Source: Desulfoscipio gibsoniae DSM 7213
Lineage (GTDB): Bacteria; Bacillota; Desulfotomaculia; Desulfotomaculales; Desulfallaceae
DNA: 64,000 nt
Assembly: GCF_000233715.2 (NCBI RefSeq)
Contig: NC_021184.1
Location: 3,000,001-3,064,000, forward strand
Direction of reading: 5' to 3'
A program made the position numbers and the translations under genes. This document shows positions 8,742 through 50,690 of the stretch, piece by piece. The notes under the pieces were generated by a model. It saw nothing but the letters and a program-made list of their open reading frames with translations. It had not been told where the DNA came from and did no database searches. Every line of letters starts with the position of its first letter. Within the stretch, counting starts at the first letter, position 1.

Positions 8742-8861
8742 ATGGGTTATGGTGGTGGAACTAACTTTGACGGAAGTTTTATCCTATTTCTTATCCTGAT
8801 TCTGCTGGTATTCGGCACCGGGTTCTTCGGTTACGGCGGAGCTTACAGCGCCGATAAATAA
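8742..8861 (+). CDS. Tiny membrane protein 1 (YjcZ-like)
   Basis: A 39-residue protein starting MGYGGGTNFDGSF, then a helix rich in Ile, Leu and Phe (ILFLILILLVFGTGFFG), and ending GGAYSADK. A Gly/Tyr-rich head, one helix and a short charged tail recall the YjcZ-type sporulation proteins of Bacillus. AAAGGAGG lies just upstream. It is the first of eight intact paralogs in this window. A role at the spore surface or mother-cell membrane is inferred from the promoter type and family resemblance. Confidence 0.8.
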   Translation: MGYGGGTNFDGSFILFLILILLVFGTGFFGYGGAYSADK

Positions 8862-9073: not shown

Positions 9074-9150
9074 ACGGAAACCTATTAATGGCCATCGTAA
9101 CCAGAACGGCGGAACAGATTATTGAAGAATTGTCTAAAGGAAAATTTTAA
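9074..9150 (+). pseudogene. Remnant of a GMC oxidoreductase C-terminus
   Basis: ATG at 9088 reads MAIVTRTAEQIIEELSKGKF and then stops. This matches the C-terminus of the intact GMC oxidoreductase at 21.4-23.1 kb (MAIAARTADHIIDEAKKGAF). Upstream, ACGGAAACC in another frame matches its NPTET codons, so a frameshift separates them. The rest of the gene is gone. As at 23.06 kb, the C-terminus is followed at once by a tiny membrane gene with its own promoter. Confidence 0.7.
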
Positions 9151-9183
9151 TGTAGATTCCAATTTATGTACCATTGACTTGTA

Positions 9184-9211
9184 ACATCTTCCTTGGCTGT
9201 TACATACTATA
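9184..9211 (+). promoter_or_regulatory. SigK/SigE-like promoter for tiny membrane gene 2
   Basis: AC, 17 bases, CATACTATA. This fits the mother-cell promoter pattern AC-N16/17-CATANNNTA. The start codon follows 33 bases later. Confidence 0.65.
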
Positions 9212-9243
9212 ACAGTGTAAAAACTGGAAAGGAGGATTTCTAT

Positions 9244-9378
9244 ATGGGTTACGGTGGTGGAGTATCTGTACCGGGTTACACAAACTTTGACGGTAGTTTC
9301 ATTCTGTTTCTTGTCCTGATCCTGTTGGTATTCGGCATGGGGTTCTTCAGATTCCCTTTTTGCAGCGTTGACAAATAA
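9244..9378 (+). CDS. Tiny membrane protein 2 (YjcZ-like)
   Basis: A 44-residue paralog starting MGYGGGVSVPGYTNFDGSF, followed by the same hydrophobic helix and the tail RFPFCSVDK. The start is ATG 9244 because GGAAAGGAGG lies nine bases upstream; an upstream in-frame TTG is not needed. The tail has a Cys not present in copy 1. It is nearly identical to copy 3 at 10148-10282, including the leader, which points to a recent duplication. Confidence 0.82.
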   Translation: MGYGGGVSVPGYTNFDGSFILFLVLILLVFGMGFFRFPFCSVDK

Positions 9379-10147: not shown

Positions 10148-10282
10148 ATGGGTTACGGTGGTGGAGTATCAGTACCGGGTTACACAAACTTTGACGGAAG
10201 CTTCATTCTGTTCCTAATCCTGATCCTGTTGGTATTCGGCATCGGGTTCTTCCGCTTCCCATTTTGCAGCGTTGACAAATAA
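10148..10282 (+). CDS. Tiny membrane protein 3 (YjcZ-like)
   Basis: A 44-residue near-copy of tiny protein 2, differing only by V/I and M/I swaps inside the helix and keeping the RFPFCSVDK tail. ATG 10148 follows GGAAAGGAGG. Tiny gene 4 begins 45 bases after its stop, and no terminator lies between them, so the two may be transcribed together. Confidence 0.82.
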   Translation: MGYGGGVSVPGYTNFDGSFILFLILILLVFGIGFFRFPFCSVDK

Positions 10283-10527: not shown

Positions 10528-10586
10528 TACGAATACATCTCATTTTATTGCATAATAGGTTTAAAATCTGTTGATGGGGGAAAAAT

Positions 10587-11630
10587 ATGCAACTTGAAGT
10601 TAAAAGGGTGAACAATGATAAAGTCATGCAAGCTTTTTTGGCTATACCTTCCCGGGTCTATGGCGAAATGGATATTCCGCCTTGGGCGGCCGCTTCCACA
10701 ATGAGAAGTATGTTTAATGTGCTGTTAAATCCGGGACTGAAGCACATAGAGTATGCCAACTTTGTGGCTTTTGACGGTAACCAGCCGGTGGGGCGAATAA
10801 CAGCGGCTATAGATAGTTTAAACCCCAGGATTGGGGAAGGTTTTTGGGGGAGTTTTGAGTGTATAGATAGTACAGAGGTGGCTGCCGAACTTCTGGAAAC
10901 AGCTGCCGGATGGCTAAGGGAAAAGAAAAAAAACGTTATGCTAGGGCCCGCCACTTTAAATACCAACCAGTATGTCGGCTTACTAATTAAAGGTTTTGAA
11001 TCCGAGGTATACAAAGAGATACCGTATAACCCGCCTTATTATCAAAATTTGGTGGAAAGTACAGGGCTGGTAAAGGCTCATGATCTTGAATGTTATAAAT
11101 GGCACCTTCCTGAAACTCTTCCAAATGCGTTACAAATGGGCCATAAGTTGGAAGGTGTGATTATACGCCCAATTAATTATTTTAACTTTATAAAGGAAGC
11201 AAAGATAATCCAGGAATTATATAATAAAATCTTTCCCAAAATGTGGGGGTTTTTACCGATAACACATGGAGACGCCCAGGCAATGGTGTTGGGGTTGGTA
11301 AATTCTGTGCCACCTGATCTTTTTCTCATAGCAGAGGTGCATAGAAAACCGGCCGGCATACATTTAGCCATTCCCCATAAAAAACCTCAGCGGGATAGAT
11401 CCGGTGGAAAGGTCAGACTGGCCATTGGAGGTGTAATGCCGGAGTTTAGAAAAAAGGGCCTGCACAGACTAATGTTAAAAGAATGTTATAAACAGTGCCG
11501 TAAACTTGGTCTTGTGACGGGAGAGGTCTCGCAAGTAACAGAAAGTAATGATGTAAAGTCAAAAATCATATCTCCAATTATTGGCAAAGAAATTACCAAA
11601 ATATACCGAGTATACAAGAAAGATTTATAA
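10587..11630 (+). CDS. GNAT-like acetyltransferase family protein (YghO-like), copy 1
   Basis: A 347-residue cytosolic protein with a paralog at 44392-45441. Shared segments include the N-terminal xxVKRVNN...MQAF, GSFECID, LGPATLNTNQYVGLLI, EIPYNPPYYQNLV and the C-terminal LAIGGVMPEFRKKGLHRLML, which looks like the acetyl-CoA loop of the GNAT fold (RxxGxx replaced by RKKGLH). It resembles the YghO group, whose substrates are unknown to me. ATG 10587 follows GATGGGGGAAAAAT. A terminator follows the stop at 11629. Both paralogs lie beside tiny membrane genes, which suggests a shared sporulation-linked role (inference). Confidence 0.7.
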   Translation: MQLEVKRVNNDKVMQAFLAIPSRVYGEMDIPPWAAASTMRSMFNVLLNPGLKHIEYANFVAFDGNQPVGRITAAIDSLNPRIGEGFWGSFECIDSTEVAAELLETAAGWLREKKKNVMLGPATLNTNQYVGLLIKGFESEVYKEIPYNPPYYQNLVESTGLVKAHDLECYKWHLPETLPNALQMGHKLEGVIIRPINYFNFIKEAKIIQELYNKIFPKMWGFLPITHGDAQAMVLGLVNSVPPDLFLIAEVHRKPAGIHLAIPHKKPQRDRSGGKVRLAIGGVMPEFRKKGLHRLMLKECYKQCRKLGLVTGEVSQVTESNDVKSKIISPIIGKEITKIYRVYKKDL

Positions 11631-12042: not shown

Positions 12043-12393
12043 ATGGCGTATGGTTTACAAAGCTCTTACTCAAATCCCTTAGGACAAATAACCCATGTTC
12101 ACGGCTATGCAAATAGAACAAGTGTTGATGAAGGACACTTGCATATCATGAGAGGCGACACCGGTCACACCATTAGGGTACCTGGTGATGATCACGTTCA
12201 CAGGGTGTTCGGAGTAACCAGTCTTGCGGTTGGGCACCGTCACTTTTATGCAGTCGTTAGCGGGCTGGAAATACCGACCAGTCCGGGTTTCCATGTCCAT
12301 CGCTATCAGGGTGTTGTAATGGTCGCCGGATCACCACCGCATATACACCGGTTCGAAGGGATAACGGCTCCAGCCCCTGATGATATTCCGTAA
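12043..12393 (+). CDS. ymaF: YmaF-family His-rich protein
   Basis: A 116-residue protein rich in histidine in repeated HVH/HxH patterns: ITHVHGYANRTS, GHLHIMRGDTGHT, DDHVHRVFG, GHRHFY, GFHVHRYQG, PHIHRFEGIT. This is the YmaF family of Bacillus and Clostridia, whose function is unknown. The repeated His pairs suggest metal binding (inference). ATG 12043 follows GGGAGTGATAAC. Two broken relatives lie at 23541-23768 and 50275-50337. The next gene is tiny membrane gene 5. Confidence 0.82.
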   Translation: MAYGLQSSYSNPLGQITHVHGYANRTSVDEGHLHIMRGDTGHTIRVPGDDHVHRVFGVTSLAVGHRHFYAVVSGLEIPTSPGFHVHRYQGVVMVAGSPPHIHRFEGITAPAPDDIP

Positions 12394-12636: not shown

Positions 12637-12662
12637 GCAGAATAAACCGGACTAGTAAAGTG

Positions 12663-12717
12663 CAAAAGCTAGAAACCCGTTCTCATAAACCAAGACTAGG
12701 GTTTCTAGTTTTTGTTT
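12663..12717 (+). terminator. Island-type terminator, copy 3
   Basis: AAAAGCTAGAAACCC / GGGTTTCTAGTTTTT stem and T-run. Confidence 0.75.
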
Positions 12718-12769
12718 CCGAATCTATCTCATGAACTTATACCTGCCATCAGCAGGGTTTATCAGCATG

Positions 12770-12900
12770 CTTCTATGCACTAGAATCGACTTCCGTCCTA
12801 TTTGGATCAAATCTTCTTTGGCCAGTTCATTCAGCACCACTGTTTACCGACTCGCGGGTCGAGCCAATCATGTTTGCCAATACATTAAGAGATTCCGATA
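12770..12900 (-). pseudogene. Remnant of a Crp/Fnr-family regulator, DNA-binding end
   Basis: On the minus strand SLNVLANMIGSTRESVN reads like the HTH recognition helix of Crp/Fnr regulators. After a frameshift, VLNELAKEDLIQIGRKSILV continues the winged helix. The N-terminal half of such a gene, also on the minus strand and also broken, lies about 3 kb away at 15970-16262. The middle of the protein (roughly 80 residues) is missing from both. Confidence 0.65.
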
Positions 12901-12906
12901 AAGAAG

Positions 12907-13112
12907 ACTTGGTTCAGGTGGGGTTTTGACCTGAACCTTAGTCGCACTTATTTCGAGCTTAAAGCCTGTTAATCCCCATTAGTTGGGGACATTCCTGTCC
13001 CCAGAGTAATATCAATTGGGGACATACCTTCGACCCTAATAGCTTTACCCGAAAAAGAGAAGGTGTGTCCCCTGACCGATTCCCTTCAGCAGGTGTGTCC
13101 CCTTTCCTTATG
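12907..13112. repeat. REP-like cluster with GGGGACA motifs
   Basis: Hairpin GGTTCAGGT / ACCTGAACC at 12911-12937, then several copies of TTGGGGACAT and GTGTGTCCCC up to 13112. The hairpin unit and the GGGGACA unit also occur together, inverted, at 41628-41690. Such palindromes often accompany Y1 transposases, but none is present here. Confidence 0.5.
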
Positions 13113-13174
13113 CGGGCGGAGTCTTACAGACTATGCGAAGATAATCCTCTGTCGGTGAACGACATCGTGTGGGA

Positions 13175-13348
13175 TTATATCCTTTTCCTGTAACTGAAGG
13201 TGAGCACTGGTTTGGGTATTCCGTACTCGTCCTTCTCGCTGCTCAGTGTTACCGTGGGGTTGATATCCGGCAGCACTCCGCCGACCATGGTGAATATAAG
13301 AAACATAATGAGACTTTCGTCAAAGCGTCCATCCTGACCATAACCCAT
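13175..13348 (-). pseudogene. Chimeric ORF: tiny membrane protein head fused to GMC oxidoreductase piece
   Basis: ATG 13348, with GGAAGGGGTG upstream, opens a 57-codon frame. Its first 19 residues (MGYGQDGRFDESLIMFLIF) align with the tiny membrane proteins (compare MGYGGGTNFDGSFILFLIL). From residue 21 it reads MVGGVLPDINPTVTLSSEKD and EYGIPKPVLTFSY, matching an internal stretch of the intact GMC oxidoreductase (TVGEVLPNNNNSVTLSAEKD, EYGMPRPVVTFGY). Further GMC-like residues appear past the stop in a shifted frame. It is therefore a fusion by recombination. Because start, ribosome site and frame are intact, it could still be expressed. Confidence 0.65.
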
Positions 13349-13450
13349 TTAGAAACACCCCTTCCTGGTTGTTATGCTGTTATATATTATGTAGCTGATT
13401 AGGAGATGTTATCGAAAAACACCATAATGTGTTAAGTATAAAGCCCAAAA

Positions 13451-13482
13451 AATACCTGGACTTTTCAGCCCAGGTATTTTTA
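13451..13482. terminator. Bidirectional terminator
   Basis: AATACCTGG / CCAGGTATT stem with A and T runs on either side, downstream of the Gly/Pro-rich gene on the minus strand. It is related to the one at 10033. Confidence 0.6.
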
Positions 13483-13533
13483 TTGCTTAATATATCGTTT
13501 GGCATATAATAGCACCGTAATTTTGTATCTTGC

Positions 13534-13740
13534 TTATTTCTTTTTCTTTTTGTAAGGGCCGAACCAGGGGAAAAACCAGGGGAAAAAACCAGGGCCGAAT
13601 CCCGGACGACCGTACCCCGGACCGTATCCGGGGCCATAACCAGGACCATAACCAGGGCCGTATCCCTTACCGGGACTATAACTAGAGTCTTTTTTCTTCT
13701 CGCCTTTTGCCGGTCTAGGACCACCGAAACCATATCCCAT
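13534..13740 (-). CDS. Gly/Pro/Tyr-rich spore-type protein
   Basis: A 68-residue low-complexity protein: MGYGFGGPRPAKGEKKK, then five tandem GYGP units (residues about 26-45), then GFGPGFFPWFFPWFGPY and a poly-Lys end. The composition recalls spore coat or exosporium proteins. ATG 13740 has AAAAAAGGAGTG upstream, and a sporulation-type promoter lies at 13765-13792. The related 23277 gene shares the MGYGF head and a GYGPGYFPGF segment but adds a hydrophobic helix. The function is not known, and the spore assignment is inference. Confidence 0.7.
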   Translation of the reverse strand: MGYGFGGPRPAKGEKKKDSSYSPGKGYGPGYGPGYGPGYGPGYGRPGFGPGFFPWFFPWFGPYKKKKK

Positions 13741-13764
13741 AGTAAATCACTCCTTTTTTGTTAC

Positions 13765-13792
13765 CACAATATTCCCAGCTAAGGGATTCTGT
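13765..13792 (-). promoter_or_regulatory. Sporulation-type promoter for the Gly/Pro-rich gene
   Basis: On the minus strand: AC, 17 bases, AATATTGTG. The spacing fits the island pattern; the -10 is off by two bases from CATANNNTA. Confidence 0.5.
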
Positions 13793-13825
13793 TACAAAAA
13801 AGTCAAACTATATATAATAAGTTAT

Positions 13826-13912
13826 TGAGGAAGCCCCTAAAGGAAATTTTTGATGTGAAACCCAATTTATATACCATTGAATTGTAATATCTTCTTGGCA
13901 GTTACATACAAT
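13826..13912 (+). pseudogene. GMC oxidoreductase C-terminal scrap with orphan tiny-gene leader
   Basis: VIEEAPKGNF and a stop at 13826-13858 match the last residues of the GMC oxidoreductase. The sequence continues as the leader of a tiny membrane gene (CCAATTTATATACCATTGAATTG, then CATACAATA at 13904-13912), as at 9.15 kb, but no tiny gene follows. It is a third trace of a GMC-then-tiny-gene unit. Confidence 0.6.
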
Positions 13913-14074
13913 AACAGTTCTTTATAAGCTATTATATTTAGCATGGATGCCATATGTTTAATTTTTTGAAAAATATTAACTGGTTAATTCGTAACGCATT
14001 TCAACATAATTGAATAATTTGATATTGTGGAAAATAAAAAAATAACGGTGGGAATAGTGAGGTGAAGTAAAAGA

Positions 14075-14143: not shown

Positions 14144-14224
14144 AAAATTAGAAGGGAAACCTGCTTTTAGAAATCACTCCCCAACATTTATAGATAATTA
14201 AGTCTATAACTAATTGGTTTTGTA

Positions 14225-14252
14225 ACCAAAAATTATATTTCCCCATATCTTA
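14225..14252 (+). promoter_or_regulatory. SigK/SigE-like promoter for the CrtC-like gene
   Basis: AC, 17 bases, CATATCTTA, an exact fit to the pattern, 26 bases before the start codon. The same promoter is duplicated at 19999-20026. Confidence 0.65.
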
Positions 14253-14278
14253 AAGGAATAACTTAAAAGGGTGATCTT

Positions 14279-15439
14279 ATGGGGAAATTTCAACAAAAGT
14301 TTAACTCCGGGAAAATTATGCTCCCCGAAGATGCGGGGCCACACCCGTCTTCCAACGTTGAATGGTGGTATTACTTCGCGTTTTTAAAAGGGGATAAGGG
14401 TGGGAATTATGCAACAATGGCATCTTTTTTCCGCATTGGAGAGCCAGGGTTGTTTAAAGGCCATTACTTAATTTTTTCCCTGGTAGATTTAGACAGGTAT
14501 ACACACAGGGCCTTTTCTCTTCTTGATAAAAAAGCAGCAGTTTACATGCTGTTCTTTATCCCCTACGATTTGCTTCTTGATCCCTTGGATAAGAGGATGT
14601 GGAAACTTGGTTATAATCTCTTGAAACGTAAGCTGCCCTATCCGCACAAGGAACTGGAAAATGTTGATGTACAAAAAATGCCAACCCGCCTTGTTTATGG
14701 TAACAATTGCTTAAATTTTGTTAACCGGTCGGAAGATTGTTTTGTTGTTCATTTAGCCGAAGAGGAAGTAACAATCGACCTCAATTTTGTCCCTCAAAAA
14801 CCCATTGCCTTAGTTGGTGGGGATGGGAAACCAAACCAACTGTTTTATTATTCCTTTCCGCATAACCAGGTGGAAGGGCGTATCAGAAACGGTCAGGTGG
14901 TAGAAAATGTAACAGGGACCGGGTGGTTTGACCACCAGTGGGGAAGAAGCCATACTTTAACCTTTAAAACAGGCTGGGACTGGTTTGGGATTCAGTTGAA
15001 TGACGGGCGAGAATTGCTGATGAACCGGTTTAATTCCATAAAAAATGGCCGTTCATTTCGTCCAATGGCCAACCTCATTGACTATAGCGGGAATGTTTTT
15101 TTCACCAGAGATGTTGAGTATTATCCCGTTAAGTACTGGAAGAGTCCCTTTACAAAAGCCGTTTATCCTTTGGAGTGGCAGATCGTTATTCCGGAGTTTT
15201 ACATGAAAATGAAGGTATCTTATTTTAGTATGCAGGAGGCGCCTATAATCGGGCCTTTACATGCCATTTGGGAAGGTGCTTGCTTTATATCAGGAGAAGA
15301 AATGATGATAAACCAAAAGGTGAGAGAAATTTTGGGAGTCGGGTATATGGAATTAGTGGGATACGCTAACGAAATAGATACCGGTATTCAGGTATTTCCG
15401 AGATTAGGAGTCGGAATTCGAAAATATTCGAGAAGATAA
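14279..15439 (+). CDS. CrtC/AttH lipocalin-like protein
   Basis: A 386-residue protein of the hydroxyneurosporene-synthase/AttH-like family. It shows the N-terminal HPSSNVEWWYYFAFL, the central GTGWFDHQWG and WDWFGIQLNDGRELLMNRF, and the C-terminal GVGYMELVGY, all typical for the family. Members include CrtC, which adds water to carotenoid double bonds, and proteins of unknown role. ATG 14279 has AAAAGGGTGATC upstream and a sporulation-type promoter just before it. Near the squalene-hopene-type cyclase and dxs, a role on an isoprenoid substrate is an attractive guess but not proven. Its 5' end is duplicated at 19927-20118. Confidence 0.82.
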   Translation: MGKFQQKFNSGKIMLPEDAGPHPSSNVEWWYYFAFLKGDKGGNYATMASFFRIGEPGLFKGHYLIFSLVDLDRYTHRAFSLLDKKAAVYMLFFIPYDLLLDPLDKRMWKLGYNLLKRKLPYPHKELENVDVQKMPTRLVYGNNCLNFVNRSEDCFVVHLAEEEVTIDLNFVPQKPIALVGGDGKPNQLFYYSFPHNQVEGRIRNGQVVENVTGTGWFDHQWGRSHTLTFKTGWDWFGIQLNDGRELLMNRFNSIKNGRSFRPMANLIDYSGNVFFTRDVEYYPVKYWKSPFTKAVYPLEWQIVIPEFYMKMKVSYFSMQEAPIIGPLHAIWEGACFISGEEMMINQKVREILGVGYMELVGYANEIDTGIQVFPRLGVGIRKYSRR

Positions 15440-15969
15440 ACCGTTCTCTCATTCCGATTCCTGATTTCTAACTCATGGCTCCTGAGTAGTTACGCAATCT
15501 ATTACGTATTGGCGTTAATGTTACTATTAAACGGTTTGTTCCAGTTGTCCTACCGATTTCAATTACGTACCGGGAGGCAGCCCTTGGGGAAAAGCATGTG
15601 TTGGGAACCTCAATCTATTTTTTTCCAAAAAGATATCCACAATATCCACACCTATAGAATGGCCGTCGTATTCCTTTTTTTAGCCACGTGAGAAAATAAG
15701 CCAAACCGCAGCAAAAATCAACAAAAATGTAAAGATACCCGGCCAATTCTTCAAACCTGGCCGGGTATCTTATCGTGCAAATACCCCGAGGCTTTCTGCA
15801 GGGTATATACGGAGCATATTGTTATTTCATACTATGACGAAAACCATATTTTTGTTAGTGCTTGCTTCGACATATTTATTTAAATAATGCGGTTAAATGT
15901 TAATTTATAGAAAAAATGTTTTTTGCTGTTGCACTTTTTCTACCAACTGAATAGTTTAAATCATCAACT
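15440..15969. other. Intergenic stretch with terminator and a tiny-gene leader scrap
   Basis: No convincing gene. A perfect hairpin (15734-15769) is followed by TATCTTATCGTG, a tail that also follows the hairpins at 24408 and near 50350. At 15900-15969 lies a scrap of a tiny membrane gene leader (CCAACTGAATAGTTTA and flanks, as at 12.46 and 46.03 kb) that ends exactly where the broken Crp/Fnr gene begins. Confidence 0.55.
15734..15769 (+). terminator. Terminator after the CrtC-like gene
   Basis: GATACCCGGCCA / TGGCCGGGTATC stem followed by a T-rich tail. Confidence 0.65.
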
Positions 15970-16262
15970 AACACGTTTCCACTGCCCAAGATAGCTAACG
16001 TAAACTGCTTTCCTTCCGAATTTATCTTATATAACCTCAATTTTCCTTTTTTCATAAAGTACAACCCCTTGCGAAATGTTTCCGGCGTCTGAATCAGCGT
16101 ATTTTTTCGCAACGTCGACATAGGGGCCATCCGGCCGATTTCCTTCAGATCATCCATCGGCAACGATTCAAATATTCTCAATGTCGACCGCGCTGTGAAA
16201 ACCATCCTGGAGCTATGCGAAGATAAATTTAAGCGTACCTCGTCTCTTACAAATAGATGCAA
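15970..16262 (-). pseudogene. Truncated Crp/Fnr-family regulator, N-terminal half
   Basis: The minus-strand frame from TTG 16262 reads a cyclic-nucleotide-binding-type fold: FESLPMDDLKEIGRMAPM, then LYFMKKGKLRLYKINSEGKQ and FTLAILGSGNVL. At 15970 it stops matching and runs into the reversed leader of a tiny membrane gene, which adds 23 foreign residues before a stop. The effector-binding domain is incomplete and the DNA-binding domain is missing, so it cannot act as a normal regulator. A matching C-terminal scrap lies at 12770-12900. Confidence 0.7.
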
Positions 16263-19868: not shown

Positions 19869-19926
19869 TGTAATTACTCCCTTCTATTCCTCTCCTTCTT
19901 TCTTAAACTATGCAACTTAAAGAAAA

Positions 19927-20118
19927 AGGGAAACCTGCTTTTAGAAATCACTCCCCAACATTTATAGATAATTAAGTCTATAACTAATTGGTTTTGTAAC
20001 CAAAAATTATATTTTCCCATATCTTAAAGGAATAACTTAAAAGGGTGATCTCATGGGGAAATTTCAACAAAAGTTTAACTCCGGAAAATTATGCTCCCCG
20101 AAGATGCGGGGCCACACC
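19927..20118 (+). repeat. Duplicate of the CrtC-like gene leader and 5' end
   Basis: Nearly identical to 14153-14345: it carries the promoter (19999-20026), the ribosome site and the first codons. It ends inside the 20th codon or so and then runs into unrelated sequence. Confidence 0.85.
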
Positions 20119-20443: not shown

Positions 20444-20836
20444 ATGTGGAACGGCTGGCCAATAGCCCGCATTTTACTACTTTTTACCGGCTTGGCCTTA
20501 TTAATGATCTCCCTACAGGTTACTATTTTTCACTACCGGCAAAATTTCAGGCACTGGGCCATGTACGGGCCGGTGATTGGCGGTCCGGTACTCGGGGTTG
20601 GTGCGATATTATTATCCTTTTATAATTTGCCTGTGCTGCGCGGTTTAATGGCGGTTTTATTTTTTGCCGGATTGGCTTTGGGGGTAACCGGTTCCGTATT
20701 GCATGTCAATGGTATTGGACAGCGAGTTGGCGGTTACGGTGAATCGCAAAACTTCTTGATCGGGCCGCCCCTGACATTACCGGCAATGGTAGCGGCCATG
20801 AGCATCCTGGGTCTAATTGCCTTGTACTGGAGGTAA
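20444..20836 (+). CDS. Four-helix membrane protein of the oxidoreductase operon
   Basis: A 130-residue protein with four hydrophobic segments: ARILLLFTGLALLMISLQV, VLGVGAILLSFYNL, LMAVLFFAGLALGVTGSVL and LPAMVAAMSILGLIALYW. ATG 20444 follows AGAAGGAGGATTTAAC. The next gene (gluconate 2-dehydrogenase subunit 3-like) starts four bases after its stop, and the GMC subunit overlaps that one, so the three form a tight operon. It may anchor the oxidoreductase in the membrane or connect it to the quinone pool in place of the usual cytochrome subunit. That role is inference; I know no name for the family. Confidence 0.8.
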   Translation: MWNGWPIARILLLFTGLALLMISLQVTIFHYRQNFRHWAMYGPVIGGPVLGVGAILLSFYNLPVLRGLMAVLFFAGLALGVTGSVLHVNGIGQRVGGYGESQNFLIGPPLTLPAMVAAMSILGLIALYWR

Positions 20837-20840
20837 CAGC

Positions 20841-21449
20841 ATGCGAGAAAACAGGACAAGATACCCCGGTTATGACGTGCTTAAAGAGCAGGAGCACTGG
20901 GATGACCATAGCCGCGAAATTGTGCTTACAAGATTGGGGCCGTTTCCTAAGCACGGGTTTCTTAATAAGCATGAAGCAGAGTTGATTTACAACATAGCCC
21001 AACACATTGTTTATGACAATAGAAAAGAAATATTAGATTATGTACTGTATCACATTGATAATACCCTTGCTTCACCCACCGGTGAAGATCAGCGCAAAGT
21101 TGGTGCACCGGAACAGAAAACCCTTGTCCGCCAGGGATTGAGGGCTATTGACCAACTGGCCCGAAAACAGTACGGGGCACCCTTTTTAGAGATTGACGCG
21201 CAGCAGCAACTGGCCATTTTAAGCACCCTGCATACGGGAAAAGCCGCGCCGTTGGATGAATGGCAAACCATACCCCAGAAGGAGTTGTTTAAAAAGCTGG
21301 CTACGGAAATCACCAGCGCTTATTACTCCCACCCCATCGTCTGGTCGGAAATAGGATACGGCGGCCCGGCTTACCCCCGTGGTTACGTGCGCGTGGAAAA
21401 AGGACTTACTGACCCCTGGGAGGCGAAAAGAGATGCCAACGAATCATGA
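20841..21449 (+). CDS. Gluconate 2-dehydrogenase subunit 3-like protein
   Basis: A 202-residue protein resembling the small subunit of gluconate 2-dehydrogenase-type enzymes: FLNKHEAELIYNIAQHIVYD near the start, then a helical body with LVRQGLRAIDQLARKQYG. In known enzymes this subunit is needed for export or stability of the FAD subunit. No Tat or Sec signal is visible here. ATG 20841 has GGAGGTAACAGC upstream; an in-frame TTG at 20817 is less likely. Its last 17 bases overlap the GMC subunit start. The C-terminal YSHPIVWSEIGYGGPAYPRG is typical of the family. Confidence 0.82.
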   Translation: MRENRTRYPGYDVLKEQEHWDDHSREIVLTRLGPFPKHGFLNKHEAELIYNIAQHIVYDNRKEILDYVLYHIDNTLASPTGEDQRKVGAPEQKTLVRQGLRAIDQLARKQYGAPFLEIDAQQQLAILSTLHTGKAAPLDEWQTIPQKELFKKLATEITSAYYSHPIVWSEIGYGGPAYPRGYVRVEKGLTDPWEAKRDANES

Positions 21450-23064
21450 TTATGTGCAGCATGATTGTGACCATTATACCGGTCACCGGTATAACCATTT
21501 AAACAAGAGGAAGTACGGTGACGGGGCGGATATATGCATTGTCGGCGCCGGCGCTGCCGGCGGGGTGCTGGCTTACGAGCTAAGCAAGGCGGGTTTTAAG
21601 GTGGTGGTTATCGAAGCAGGGCCTTTTTGGAATCCACAGACCGACTTTGCCAGCGATGAACTTACCATGCAAAACCTGGCCTGGAACGACACCAGGTTGG
21701 TGGCGGGCAACGACCCGCTGGCGATGGGGCATAACAATTCCGGGCGCGGCGTAGGCGGCGGCACCGTGCATTTCACGGGTGTGTTTTATAGGTTTCACGA
21801 AAGTGACTTTAGGGTAAAAACCCTGGACGGCGTGGCAGATGACTGGCCCATTAAGTATCAGGACCTGGAACCATACTACGATAAAATAGAAAAAGATATC
21901 GCGGTTTCCGGCCCCAAACATTTCCCCTGGGGGTCATTTCAAGGTCCCTATCCCTACCCCCAGCGGGAACCAATCAGCGCCAATGCGCAGATTTTTCGCG
22001 AGGGATGCGCCAAGCTGGGCATCAAAAGCACGGTGGCACCGCTGGCCATACTTTCCGCACCCTTTGATGGGCGTCCGCCCTGCATCAACCGGGGGTTTTG
22101 CAACCAGGGCTGTAAGCCCAACGCCAAGTTCAGCACTCTGATCCACCATATCCCCAAGGCCATCGGACACGGAGCGGAAGTGCTTAGCGACTGTATGGTG
22201 ACTCATGTTGTCCCGGATAACAGCGGTAAAGTTGCGGGTATTACCTTTGTGCATGATGGTAAGGAATATTTCCAGAAAGCCAAAGTGACTATAATTTCGG
22301 CTTTCTGTATTGAAACGCCCAGGCTCTTGCTGCATTCGGCCTGCCCCCAATTCCCCAATGGGCTGGCCAATAGCAGCGGCATGGTGGGTAAAGCACTGAT
22401 GCCCCACAGCGGTCATGATATCTTCGCCAAATTCCACGATGAAGTACGCCTGTACAAGGGCACTCCGGTGCTGGCGGTCTCCCAGGACTTCTATGAAACG
22501 GATCAAGCACGGGGGTTTGTGCGGGGCTATACTTTCAACGCCCACGGGACAAGACCGCTGGGGCTGGCCAAGAACCTTGTTTCAAAGGCGGGCATTTGGG
22601 GCCAAAAACTTTATGACATTATGCGCGATTATAATTTTTATGCCCAAATCACTACGGTAGGAGAAGTACTGCCCAACAACAATAATTCAGTAACTTTAAG
22701 CGCTGAGAAGGACGAATATGGGATGCCCAGGCCCGTGGTAACTTTCGGTTACGGTGAAAACGATAATAAAATGATTGCCCACGCAGTTCAGAAAGCCAAC
22801 GAAATATTGGAGGCCGTAGGCGGCGAGCCTGCTTTTGTCATTGCCGATACCGGCCACCTACTGGGTACCTGTCGAATGGGCAATGACCCGTCCACTTCCG
22901 TGGTCAATGGTTTTTGCCGCAGCCACGATTTACCGAACCTGTATATATGCAGCGCCGCCGTTTTTGTTACTTCCGGGGGATGCAACCCCACGGAAACGGT
23001 GATGGCCATCGCCGCCAGAACGGCGGACCATATTATTGATGAAGCAAAAAAAGGTGCCTTTTAG
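21433..23064 (+). CDS. GMC-family FAD oxidoreductase (gluconate dehydrogenase-like)
   Basis: The 543-residue catalytic subunit. The N-terminal FAD-binding motif is ADICIVGAGAAGGVLAYELS, followed by GRGVGGGTVHFTGVFYRF and a Cys-rich stretch (CINRGFCNQGCKPNAK). The C-terminal GMC domain has DTGHLLGTCRMGNDPSTSVV and VTSGGCNPTETVMAIAARTA, with the conserved His and Asn. It oxidises an alcohol or sugar; the substrate is unknown. ATG 21433 has GGGAGGCGAAAAG upstream and overlaps the small subunit gene. Pieces of the same kind of gene occur at 9074, 13175 and 13826. A decayed tiny membrane gene follows at once. Confidence 0.88.
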   Translation: MPTNHDYVQHDCDHYTGHRYNHLNKRKYGDGADICIVGAGAAGGVLAYELSKAGFKVVVIEAGPFWNPQTDFASDELTMQNLAWNDTRLVAGNDPLAMGHNNSGRGVGGGTVHFTGVFYRFHESDFRVKTLDGVADDWPIKYQDLEPYYDKIEKDIAVSGPKHFPWGSFQGPYPYPQREPISANAQIFREGCAKLGIKSTVAPLAILSAPFDGRPPCINRGFCNQGCKPNAKFSTLIHHIPKAIGHGAEVLSDCMVTHVVPDNSGKVAGITFVHDGKEYFQKAKVTIISAFCIETPRLLLHSACPQFPNGLANSSGMVGKALMPHSGHDIFAKFHDEVRLYKGTPVLAVSQDFYETDQARGFVRGYTFNAHGTRPLGLAKNLVSKAGIWGQKLYDIMRDYNFYAQITTVGEVLPNNNNSVTLSAEKDEYGMPRPVVTFGYGENDNKMIAHAVQKANEILEAVGGEPAFVIADTGHLLGTCRMGNDPSTSVVNGFCRSHDLPNLYICSAAVFVTSGGCNPTETVMAIAARTADHIIDEAKKGAF

Positions 23065-23066
23065 TA

Positions 23067-23159
23067 ACACCTTCCATCCGGGTTACATAGGATAAACCGT
23101 TTATCCTGCTGGTGTTTGGCACAGGGTTCTTTGGATATGGCGGAGTTTATGATAAATAA
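23067..23159 (+). pseudogene. Tiny membrane gene with internal deletion
   Basis: A good promoter (AC, 17 bases, CATAGGATA at 23067-23094) is followed directly by the second half of a tiny membrane protein (ILLVFGTGFFGYGGVYDK, stop at 23157). Ribosome site, start codon and head are missing, so no protein can be made. It shows that a tiny gene once followed the intact GMC gene. Confidence 0.75.
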
Positions 23160-23276: not shown

Positions 23277-23429
23277 ATGGGTTACGGTTTTAGACCTGGA
23301 AAGCCCGGATACGGTCCTGGATATTTTCCAGGTTTTGGGTTTGGGGGATTTCTTCCCTTGCTATTGCTGTTTTTGTTTTTCGGTTTCCCGTTCTTTGGCG
23401 GCTTTTATGGAAGCAAGAAACAAAAATAA
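23277..23429 (+). CDS. 50-residue Gly/Pro-rich membrane protein
   Basis: Starts MGYGFRPGKPGYGPGYFPGF, then a hydrophobic helix (GGFLPLLLLFLFFGFPFFGG), then the tail FYGSKKQK. It links the Gly-rich protein at 13534 (same head) and the tiny membrane family (head, helix, charged tail). ATG 23277 has ACGGAGG upstream. A sporulation-type promoter and a terminator (23459-23489) frame it. The 3' end is duplicated as a scrap at 50074-50120. A spore envelope role is inferred from promoter and composition. Confidence 0.75.
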   Translation: MGYGFRPGKPGYGPGYFPGFGFGGFLPLLLLFLFFGFPFFGGFYGSKKQK

Positions 23430-23458
23430 TAATTTGATGATTAGTACTCTCCTGTTTA

Positions 23459-23489
23459 ACACCCCCTTAACGGGGTGTTTACTTTTTTA
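23459..23489 (+). terminator. Terminator after the 23277 gene
   Basis: AACACCCC / GGGGTGTT stem then ACTTTTTTAA. Its copy at 50145-50175 has lost part of the stem. Confidence 0.7.
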
Positions 23490-23540
23490 ATAGATTACCT
23501 AAATTTGCAGCATGAAAACCTATCAATATATGTAACAATT

Positions 23541-23768
23541 TCCCTTTATCCAGCAGGGCAACGCACCCATGTCCACCAGTATTATAATAAGACCAGTTTT
23601 GATGACGGACACACCCATAGCTACAAAGTATTTACCAGCCTGGAAATACCAACCAAACCCGGTTTCCATGTACACCGTTATTAGGGCATCGTTATGTTAG
23701 CCGGGGACCCCTTGCATATACACAGATTTGTGGGGATAACAGCCCCGGCGCCGGATGACGTCAATTAG
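23541..23768 (+). pseudogene. Broken YmaF-family gene
   Basis: SLYPAGQRTHVHQYYNKTSF and GFHVHRY match the YmaF protein at 12043, but a TAG replaces the next Gln codon at 23682-23684. After the stop the match goes on to the end (HIHRFVGITAPAPDDVN). An inner block of about 45 residues is missing. The start codon, ribosome site and -10 box, kept in the copy at 50224-50337, are deleted here. Confidence 0.75.
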
Positions 23769-24395: not shown

Positions 24396-24735
24396 TAATT
24401 GATAAAAATACCTGGGTAAATTAATTTTACCCAGGTATCTTATCGTGAAAATACCCTTATTTTTATACCATAATACGTAAAATAAGCAATTTTGCTACAT
24501 GTTTTTTATCTTGCAAAAAATGATTTCACCCTTATTTGTATAATCTCTGAGGCTTTGGGATCACTTAATATCAGCAAGATTAGGATCAGGAATAATAAGA
24601 AGGGATTAGCTTGTAAACTTGGCAACACTGATCACCCCCATAAGGAATTTACACTAATAGATAGCTTTTTTTATGTTATTTCAATCAAATGTTATTTGTT
24701 ACTAGTAATTGCTAATTTTGATCCTAATCTTTACT
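24396..24735. repeat. Duplicated segment, copy A (partner 50336-50690)
   Basis: About 340 bases nearly identical to 50336-50690. It starts with the hairpin at 24408-24438 and TATCTTATCGTG, and contains an open frame from about 24486 (includes EALGSLN and KKGLACKLGNTDHPH). In the first 48 codons of this frame most differences between the copies fall at third positions, which hints at a once-coding sequence. No ribosome site or known family is seen. Confidence 0.75.
24408..24438. terminator. Bidirectional hairpin upstream of the methyltransferase
   Basis: ATACCTGGGTAAA / TTTTACCCAGGTAT, nearly perfect. It is duplicated near 50350-50380. Confidence 0.6.
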
Positions 24736-44362: not shown

Positions 44363-44391
44363 AACCATTAACTGATTAATGGAGGTTTGAT

Positions 44392-45441
44392 ATGCAATAT
44401 ACTGTTACCAGGGTGAATAACCCCGCCGCCATGCAGGCGTTTATGCAGATACCCCGGATGGTTTACCAGGGCGGCAAAATACCGCCGGCCAATGCCGGCG
44501 GCACCAACTGGATGCGCTTTACGCCCCTGGCCAACCCGACCTTGCAGCATGTCAGGTTCGCCAACTTTGTGGCCCTGGAAGGCAATCAGCCCGTGGGGCG
44601 GATAACCGCCTCGTATGACCTGCTGAACCCCCGTCCTGAGGAAGGGTTTTGGGGTAGTTTCGAATGTGTTGAACGCCCGGAAGTGGCCAGGCTTCTACTG
44701 GACGCGGCTGCCGGGTGGCTGAACAAGCAGGGTAAGACCGTTATGATCGGCCCGGCCACTTTAAATACCAATCAACAGGTCGGCTTGTTAATTGAGGGTT
44801 TTGAGTATGAGCCACAGGCAGAGATACCATATAATCCACCGTATTACAAGGATCTGTTGGCTGAATCCGGATTGGAAAAGCTGCATGACCTGGAATGTTT
44901 TGAATGGCGCCTGCCCGACGAGTTACCACCAAAACTGCGGGACGCCACAGCGCCTCCCGGCCTTACGATCCGTCCGGTGAATTACCGGGCATTAAATAAC
45001 GAGGCCGGGATTGTCATGGAAGTTCATAACAAGTCCATGTCCAGAATATGGGGTTTTATTCCCATGACCATCGAAGAAGCCAGTGGTTTTTTGCAAAGCT
45101 TGGCTGCCAGCGTTCCCCCGGATCTGTTTCTTATATTTGAGATGGGCGGCGAGCCGGCCGGCATGTTACTATCCATACCCATCAGGCGACCGAGTCCGGG
45201 TGGAAATGATGGGCTGGTTAGATTGGCTATCGGGGGCGTAGTGCCGAAATTCCAACACAGGGGTATACACTGGTATATTTTAAAGGAGACCTATGAGCGT
45301 TGCAGAAAACTTGGCTACACCAGCGGCGAGGCCTCGCAGGTTGCCGAAAGTAATGATGTGGTAAAAAGAAGAGTTATAAAACCCCTGTTTGGTGGTAAGG
45401 TGATCAAGTTATACCGTGTTTATAAGCGGGATATTGGTTAG
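44392..45441 (+). CDS. GNAT-like acetyltransferase family protein (YghO-like), copy 2
   Basis: A 349-residue paralog of the 10587 protein, with the same landmarks: VTRVNN start, GFWGSFECVERP, GPATLNTNQQVGLLI, AEIPYNPPYY, and LAIGGVVPKFQHRGIHWYIL at the likely acetyl-CoA loop, here with the more usual RG. It is GC-richer than copy 1 and differs at many positions, so the duplication is old. ATG 44392 follows AATGGAGG and has a sporulation-type promoter. A small GTATC-TTCG-GATAC hairpin follows the stop, then tiny membrane gene 7. Confidence 0.75.
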   Translation: MQYTVTRVNNPAAMQAFMQIPRMVYQGGKIPPANAGGTNWMRFTPLANPTLQHVRFANFVALEGNQPVGRITASYDLLNPRPEEGFWGSFECVERPEVARLLLDAAAGWLNKQGKTVMIGPATLNTNQQVGLLIEGFEYEPQAEIPYNPPYYKDLLAESGLEKLHDLECFEWRLPDELPPKLRDATAPPGLTIRPVNYRALNNEAGIVMEVHNKSMSRIWGFIPMTIEEASGFLQSLAASVPPDLFLIFEMGGEPAGMLLSIPIRRPSPGGNDGLVRLAIGGVVPKFQHRGIHWYILKETYERCRKLGYTSGEASQVAESNDVVKRRVIKPLFGGKVIKLYRVYKRDIG

Positions 45442-50036: not shown

Positions 50037-50120
50037 TAACATTTTTTCTTACAACCACATACTTATAACGGCGGTTTCCAGTTCTTCGGCGGCTTTTATG
50101 GAAGCAAGAAAAAAAATAGT
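50037..50120 (+). pseudogene. Tiny-gene leader fused to the 3' end of a 23277-type gene
   Basis: 50037-50073 matches the leader of tiny gene 1 (TAACATTTTTTCT ... ACATACTTATAAC). At about 50074 it switches to the 3' half of the Gly/Pro-rich membrane gene (FFGGFYGSKKK). There is no start codon between them. Its terminator follows at about 50145-50175 in decayed form. Confidence 0.65.
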
Positions 50121-50223
50121 AATTTGATGATTAGTACTCTCCTGTTTAACGCCCCCTGCGGGGTTTTTACTTTTTGATAGATTACCCAAACTTTTCAGCA
50201 TGAAAACTCAACCAATATATGTA

Positions 50224-50337
50224 ACATTTACCTTTTATAAGAATAATATAATAATAAATTTAGGGGTGGTTGTTATGGGATATGGTTTATTTAGAGCTTT
50301 TTCCCTTTATCCAGCAGGGCAACGTACCCATGTGTAA
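50224..50337 (+). pseudogene. 5' part of a YmaF-type gene
   Basis: Keeps what the 23541 copy lost: AC at 50224, AATAATATA (16-base spacing), the ribosome site TAGGGGTGG and ATG 50275. It reads MGYGLFRAFSLYPAGQRTHV and stops, because after ACCCATGT about 800 bases present in the 23.6-24.4 kb copy are missing. Confidence 0.7.
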
Positions 50338-50690
50338 GTTAATTGATAAAAATACCTGGGTAATTAATTTTACCCAGGTATCTTATCGTGAAAATACCCT
50401 TATTTTTATACCATAATACGTAAAATAAGCAATTTTGCTACATGTCTTTTATCTTGCGAAAAATGATTTCACCCTCATTCGTATAATCTCTGAGGCTTTG
50501 GGATCACTTAATATCAACAAGATCAGGATTAGGAATAATAAAAAGGGATTAGCTTGTAAACTTGGCAACACTGATCACCCCCATAATAATTTTACATAAT
50601 AAATGACTTTTTTTATGTTATTTCAGTTAAATGTTATTTGTTACTAATAATTGCTATTTTTGGCTCTAATCTTTTGCCGTTTTTTAAACG
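50336..50690. repeat. Duplicated segment, copy B (partner 24396-24735)
   Basis: Near-identical to 24396-24735, including the hairpin and the possible coding frame, which here ends early at a TAA after DHPHNNFT. From 50690 to 50800 no gene is seen. Confidence 0.75.

Follow-up and report, generated by a model that had tools for sequence, protein, structure and literature searches.

The chimeric frame and its two parents

The window analysed here is a stretch of 64,000 nt (bases 3000001-3064000) of the single-contig genome of Desulfoscipio gibsoniae (4,855,529 bp), a spore-forming sulfate reducer formerly placed in Desulfotomaculum. Its minus strand carries an open frame of 57 codons, with the ATG at 13348 and the stop at 13177-13175, in which the beginning of a tiny membrane-protein gene is fused to an internal piece of a GMC oxidoreductase gene (Table 1). 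Residues 20-53 of the encoded protein agree in 23 of 34 positions with residues 425-458 of the GMC protein of the same window (E 2e-12 in a search within the window) and in up to 26 of 34 with GMC proteins of other genomes; the other intact GMC proteins ranged from 20 to 26, with 17 and 15 for the distant L040 and L041. The same relationship is visible in the DNA, where 13178-13309 aligns with 22765-22628 of the window's GMC gene (67% over 138 nt, E 2e-11), and the segment 8794-8694 to which the leader and head align belongs to the tiny membrane-protein gene at 8742. When profiles of the two parent proteins were run on the frame, the tiny profile matched residues 1-18 (E 0.0017) and the GMC profile residues 18-54 (E 1.2e-10), so that the two meet at residue 18 in the same frame. 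The junction falls within codons ~17-20, and a short stretch near it, TTTCT, is by eye common to both parents. The matches of both halves are far beyond chance, and the in-frame join alone is a one-in-three event.

These alignments confirm that the chimera is real, the front of a tiny membrane-protein gene being fused to a mid-GMC piece with its initiation signals intact. The original prediction, made from the letters of the sequence, had proposed a product of recombination with a head from the tiny family, a tail from the interior of the GMC protein, an in-frame join and an intact start and ribosome site. Both parents were recovered when the halves were aligned against the window, and the proposed split agrees with a tiny-type head of ~18 codons followed by GMC interior codons 20-53. 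The 57-aa protein had no Pfam or NCBIfam match over a cut-off; even with E values as high as 10 allowed, neither GMC_oxred_N nor GMC_oxred_C nor any other GMC model matched it. On the plus strand the same segment is also open in that frame; this reading was rejected, as it returned only sub-threshold Pfam matches, to eukaryotic families.

Table 1. Features of the window that bear on the chimera (window coordinates)
Feature	Position	Strand	Remarks
Tiny membrane-protein gene	8742..8861	plus	Leader and head are the highest-scoring DNA match to those of the chimera
GMC C-terminal scrap with stop	9074..9150	plus	Directly before the leader of tiny gene 9244; 80% over 56 nt, nhmmer E 2.7e-5
GMC-derived DNA	13160..13295	minus	nhmmer E 6.1e-19; continues for 15 nt after the stop, across gaps of 1 nt and 6 nt
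Chimeric open frame, 57 codons	13175..13348	minus	Tiny-gene head (codons 1-~18), GMC interior (codons ~20-53), RKRI-stop
Tiny-gene-derived leader and head	13296..13397	minus	76% over 104 nt to 8794-8694, E 4e-13
Leader end with strong Shine-Dalgarno	13349..13368	minus	-14.7 kcal/mol; 3 of 2000 random 20-mers equally strong
Sigma-K-like promoter motif AC-N16-CATAATATA	13383..13409	minus	Ends 34 nt before the ATG
Strong hairpin upstream of the chimera	13437..13492	.	Resembles the hairpin before the tiny gene at 10148; not listed as a terminator in a consensus scan
Probable GMC C-terminal scrap, VIEEAPKGNF-stop	13822..13852	plus	A leader remnant of a tiny gene follows, up to 13918; 83% over 98 nt to 9119-9216
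Gluconate-2-dehydrogenase subunit 3 gene	20817-21449		Precedes the GMC gene; Gluconate_2-dh3
Intact GMC dehydrogenase gene	21379..23064	plus	Start may be ATG 21433; GMC_oxred_N/C
Headless tiny-gene remnant	23091..23156	plus	Directly after the intact GMC gene; sigma-K-like motif at 23067

The tiny membrane-protein family

The parent of the head is an unnamed family of ~40-residue membrane proteins with the nearly invariant core FDGSFILFL(I/V)LILLVFG, whose genes lie in the window at 8742, 9244, 10148, 10328, 12517, 30912, 45608, 46089 and 46775 (+). The family was matched in 48 of 113 genomes of the order, often in several copies. The gene at 8742 gave the highest DNA score with the chimera, and two other tiny leaders reached a higher percentage over fewer columns. 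Like these genes, the chimera has the leader, the promoter-like motif, the ribosome site, the MGYG start and the hydrophobic stretch at the same position; unlike them, it carries the core FDESLIMFLIF and lacks the second half of the protein (LILLVFG and the glycine-rich tail). Among the window's intact tiny proteins, no model was matched over its cut-off by the six of nine scanned in Pfam or the four of nine scanned in NCBIfam, and no YjcZ or tiny-membrane-protein model matched these proteins or the chimera in either collection. In size and in their glycine/tyrosine plus hydrophobic make-up they presumably resemble the YjcZ-type tiny sporulation proteins of Bacillus. Two further small glycine/tyrosine-rich frames with an MGYGF start, at 13534-13740 (-) near the chimera and at 23277-23429 (+) near the intact GMC gene, had no family match over a cut-off.

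The GMC gene and the donor of the tail

The tail is homologous to GMC oxidoreductases of the fructose/gluconate/glucose dehydrogenase large-subunit type (PF00732/PF05199), and the solved structures nearest the window's GMC protein are fructose and glucose dehydrogenases. Within that protein the counterpart of the tail sits at the start of the GMC_oxred_C domain (432-545). Unlike GMC oxidoreductases, the chimera has only ~34 of ~543 residues, with no FAD-binding N-terminus, no C-terminal part and a probable frameshift at its end. Over its 34 codons the tail DNA is 67.6% identical to the window's GMC gene, 73.5% to L007 and 71.6% to L004, whereas the window's gene shares 74.5-77.5% of the same codons' DNA with its five closest orthologues. 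These figures suggest that the donor was probably another GMC copy, now lost, rather than the window's gene. The earlier assignment of the tail to the inside of the GMC protein thus holds for the family and probably not for the window's own gene as the source.

The history of the tail was followed with a codon model on 15 of the 18 GMC genes kept after removal of five duplicates (L040, L041 and the truncated L042 were left out). It gave a long branch to the chimera with an omega of ~0.05 at the best placement, like the rest (2dL 0.01), the branch lengths being rough at 34 codons. Neutral change of the tail (omega = 1) was disfavoured, with a 2dL of 3.9 to 10.3 over the six best placements. The placement itself differs between methods: the full-gene DNA tree sets the tail beside L036/L037 (support 0.63) and the codon model beside L004 or L033. 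On the simplest reading of these data, the piece evolved for most of its past within a functional GMC gene other than the window's and was excised afterwards; selection acting on the fusion would leave an identical signal.

Expression signals upstream of the chimera

The leader of the chimera carries a motif that resembles the sigma-K consensus, given as KCACM / GCATANNNTA in a table passage of PMC3416734. The pattern AC-N16/17-CATANNNTA occurs in four of the nine leaders of the window's tiny genes, in eight of the 33 leaders taken from relatives and in 45 of 5000 random sequences of 100 nt; it was picked after the leaders had been seen, so that the relatives offer the fairer test, although their leaders are not all independent. 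Across the window it matches 15 times, compared with 3.5 times on average and 7 at most in 20 shuffles. The distance to the ATG in the chimera lies within the range of the four tiny genes of the window that have the motif (32-46 nt), and the genome contains a sigma-K gene (TIGR02846, 334 bits, over the cut-off). Near the leader, sites of the sigma-70 type showed no excess, three being found and 2.0 expected in 12640-13800. The pairing energy of the Shine-Dalgarno sequence was computed with what we take to be the 16S end. The resemblance to tiny genes extends further upstream, since the leader together with the preceding hairpin also aligns with 10159-10028 (65% over 146 nt). The chimera plausibly inherited a late-sporulation promoter and a good ribosome site, either of which may be in use, and its expression is possible.

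Signs of decay in the head and at the end of the tail

A DNA profile built from 13 of the 18 GMC genes extends the GMC similarity beyond the stop codon of the chimera. Because this similarity passes the stop through small gaps, the RKRI-stop is most simply read as GMC DNA out of frame, and the C-terminus of the chimera is probably frameshifted GMC DNA. A frameshift-tolerant protein test for GMC sequence beyond the tail was borderline, its scores being equalled by 5 of 100 and by 7 of 100 shuffles. In the head, FDESLIMFL stands in place of the FDGSFILFL of the collected tiny proteins, so that three of nine near-invariant core residues are lost and the (I/V)LILLVFG segment that follows is absent. 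Among the 40 collected tiny proteins, 34 are identical at all nine sites, and the residues changed in the chimera are F at site 5 (40/40), G at site 3 (37/40) and L at site 7 (37/40); these figures are somewhat too high, since the collection was made with a text pattern that only seven of the nine tiny genes of the window passed. Those failing it were 45608, with the core RGSGILFL, and 46775, which has no ATG at the place and the core FDGSFILIL.

The codon differences point the same way. Between the chimera head and its seven paralogs in the window, 24 differences change the amino acid and 18 are silent, and among the paralogs the numbers are 12 and 101, the summed comparisons not being independent. 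Within this single fused sequence omega is low over the tail and constraint on the head is relaxed. The best 19-residue hydropathy is 1.67 in the chimera versus 2.53 and 2.84 in two intact tiny proteins. The head had earlier been called anchor-like; its descent from the tiny membrane family holds, with near-invariant residues lost and a lower hydropathy. The persistence of the open frame is weak evidence for function, because such frames often survive neutral drift: in trials with substitutions only, a fraction of 0.52 stayed open at 10% divergence and 0.27 at 20%. With a probable out-of-frame end, a head that has lost core residues and a frame of a kind that commonly survives neutrally, the description of the locus as a clear case of a new small gene finds no support.

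GMC scraps and tiny-gene remnants

Two further probable GMC C-terminal scraps adjoin tiny-gene DNA elsewhere in the window. The scrap at 9074-9150 reached a frameshift-tolerant score of 63, against a null maximum of 31. That at 13822-13852 is weak taken alone, as 2 of 100 shuffles were as good and the DNA profile missed it, and the leader remnant behind it lacks the full sigma-K-like pattern. Together with the headless remnant after the intact GMC gene, these places display a recurring order of GMC end, leader with promoter motif and tiny gene, which is complete at 9074-9378 save for the GMC body and damaged at the two other places.

The GMC protein found matches in 17 of the 113 genomes of the order; those in G084 and G016 are distant (38-39%). 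Two of the three scorable GMC scraps in other genomes of the order adjoin a tiny gene, at ~75 and ~95 nt. The first, L042 of genome G042, is a partial GMC gene covering residues 104-440 of the window protein; at the DNA level it shares 90% identity with the intact copy in the same genome, above any other gene compared, and therefore looks like a lineage-specific copy. The second, in G064 (L134), is a GMC C-terminal part with stops. The third, a partial copy in G012 (L133), has no tiny gene in 8.5 kb, and a partial copy in G109 stops at the contig end, which makes it unscorable for a tiny-gene neighbour. No tiny gene lies within 1 kb of any of the 17 distinct intact GMC loci of other genomes, a set that does not include the window's own intact gene with its headless neighbour; L038 has less than 200 nt on its 3' side, the tiny gene of L139 is 4.4 kb off and an eight-residue tiny match in L032 (E 0.27) was counted as noise. 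Two further intact loci with shorter flanks, L126 and L127, had no tiny gene either. Another rearrangement scar was seen at L133 4069-4278 (genome G012), where a 41-nt inverted match to the GMC interior directly precedes a GMC C-terminus.

The fused form in other genomes

The complete fused form was found in none of 99 genomes, none of 112 other genomes of the order and none of 397 others from an even sample of the phylum, these sets overlapping; a class-level search likewise gave none in 112. A search run to E 1 returned weak matches that are not intact GMC genes, some of which span both halves at about 29-38% identity. At 19 loci of such matches, an ordinary tiny gene in L015 was all that the tiny and GMC profiles detected at E 0.05; the weak matches G040:C87 and G068:C151 had no locus and were left out of this check. 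A conserved family of complete relatives, which would have spoken against a recent chimera, was thus absent from the order and phylum samples, and the reading of the frame as a member of such a family was rejected. An origin from a mobile element is likewise unsupported, with no match in phage records and none in viral contigs; plasmid records gave one partial match, to a Gluconobacter GMC gene.

Origin of the chimera

Chimeric pseudogenes, or gene-fragment fusions, arise when two unrelated gene pieces are joined by rearrangement, one parent being duplicated and decaying. The chimera has the marks of this class, namely two joined gene pieces, frame damage and no conserved orthologue, the damage lying at the extreme 3' end and resting on the DNA profile. 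It differs from chimeric pseudogenes in general in that the join keeps a promoter-like motif, a ribosome site and the frame. We consider it probable that the chimera is a recombination scar among GMC/tiny gene units, which has retained a usable-looking promoter and start and is most likely jobless and decaying. This reading is favoured because both parents are identified at the DNA and protein levels and the GMC similarity passes the stop out of frame, because the head has changed at core sites and differs from its paralogs by more amino-acid-changing than silent codon differences, and because GMC scraps adjoin tiny DNA in the window, at 9074-9150 and more weakly at 13822-13918, with a headless tiny gene after the intact GMC gene. 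It is further favoured by the closeness of scraps to tiny genes elsewhere (two of three, against none of the 17 intact loci), by the absence of the fused form from the other genomes searched and by the 314 pseudogenes reported in the genome paper on Desulfotomaculum gibsoniae Groll (PMC4148979), which also gives a coding share of 81%. Against it stand the survival of the open frame, start, Shine-Dalgarno and promoter-like motif, the lack of relaxed constraint on the GMC-derived tail and the borderline outcome of the protein-level test beyond the stop.

The events could have been as follows. Tiny genes are present here as dispersed similar copies, some of which had GMC DNA alongside in the order GMC end, sigma-K-like promoter and tiny gene. 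Through copying and deletion among these units, a second GMC gene may have been broken and its middle attached to the start of one tiny gene, comprising promoter, ribosome site and the first ~18 codons. In an array of GMC/tiny units, exactly such a chimera would arise if a deletion ran from a tiny head into the following GMC gene. Its product lacks the FAD-binding and C-terminal catalytic parts and retains just half of the membrane segment of the tiny protein; should the inherited signals still be active, a short peptide might be made in the mother cell during sporulation.

Alternatively, the chimera could be a young functional gene, in which the sporulation promoter, ribosome site and membrane head of a tiny gene display a GMC-derived tail and selection keeps the whole. 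The main point for this is the low omega over the tail, to which the placement of the sigma-K-like motif, the strong Shine-Dalgarno, the intact frame and the sigma-K gene of the genome can be added; set against the lost core residues, the shortened membrane segment, the probably frameshifted C-terminus and the lack of any relative with the fusion, they leave it unlikely. A broader version, about as unlikely, holds that the dispersed tiny sporulation-type genes are a recombination hot spot that repeatedly captures and shreds GMC genes in the order, that the joins can be expressed from the outset, since many tiny genes bring along a sigma-K-type promoter, a ribosome site and a membrane head, and that the chimera is a live young mother-cell gene.

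It is quite improbable that the tail was copied recently from the window's own GMC gene and that the fusion is a young local event. The two lie in the same window, 9 kb apart, and share 23 of 34 residues; the tail is nevertheless closer to L007 and L004 than to that gene, which is itself closer to its five nearest orthologues, and the long branch with mostly silent change led us to reject this reading. Chance similarity of an unrelated open frame, which a short frame with no family match might invite, has a negligible probability and is excluded by the independent DNA matches of the halves (E 4e-13 and 2e-11) and by the GMC profile (E 6e-19).

As found, the chimera, read as a recombination scar, is one more gene-fragment fusion in a pseudogene-rich genome. 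If it is expressed, small families of promoter-plus-start units would offer a simple route from broken genes to new small proteins. The tiny family may outweigh the chimera in worth, being nearly invariant, present in multiple copies in many genomes, partly behind a sigma-K-like motif and free of any family model in the scans made.

Other repeats and remnants in the window

Several other segments of the window are repeated or broken. The YmaF-family gene at 12043-12393 (PF12788) has a decayed second copy, with 23592-23758 matching 12217-12383 at 69% over 167 nt and stops seen by eye. A direct repeat of ~200 nt (97%) occupies 14145-14345 and 19919-20118 and includes the start of a CrtC/lipocalin-type gene at 14279. 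Another repeat, of 88% over 171 nt, links 23381-23549 with 50072-50238, and weak tiny-profile matches occur near its copies, at 24509-24631 and 50452-50574. A segment at 12727-12840 that by eye looks like the end of a Crp-type regulator matched nothing in Pfam. The short frame at 15900-16262 (-), whose cyclic-nucleotide-binding match falls just short of the cut-off, resembles a truncated Crp-type gene. Finally, the genes at 10571-11618 and 44376-45426 are related, aligning at 61% over 1062 nt, and both show weak acetyltransferase (GNAT) matches; each adjoins tiny genes, and this pair suggests an old duplication of that part of the window.
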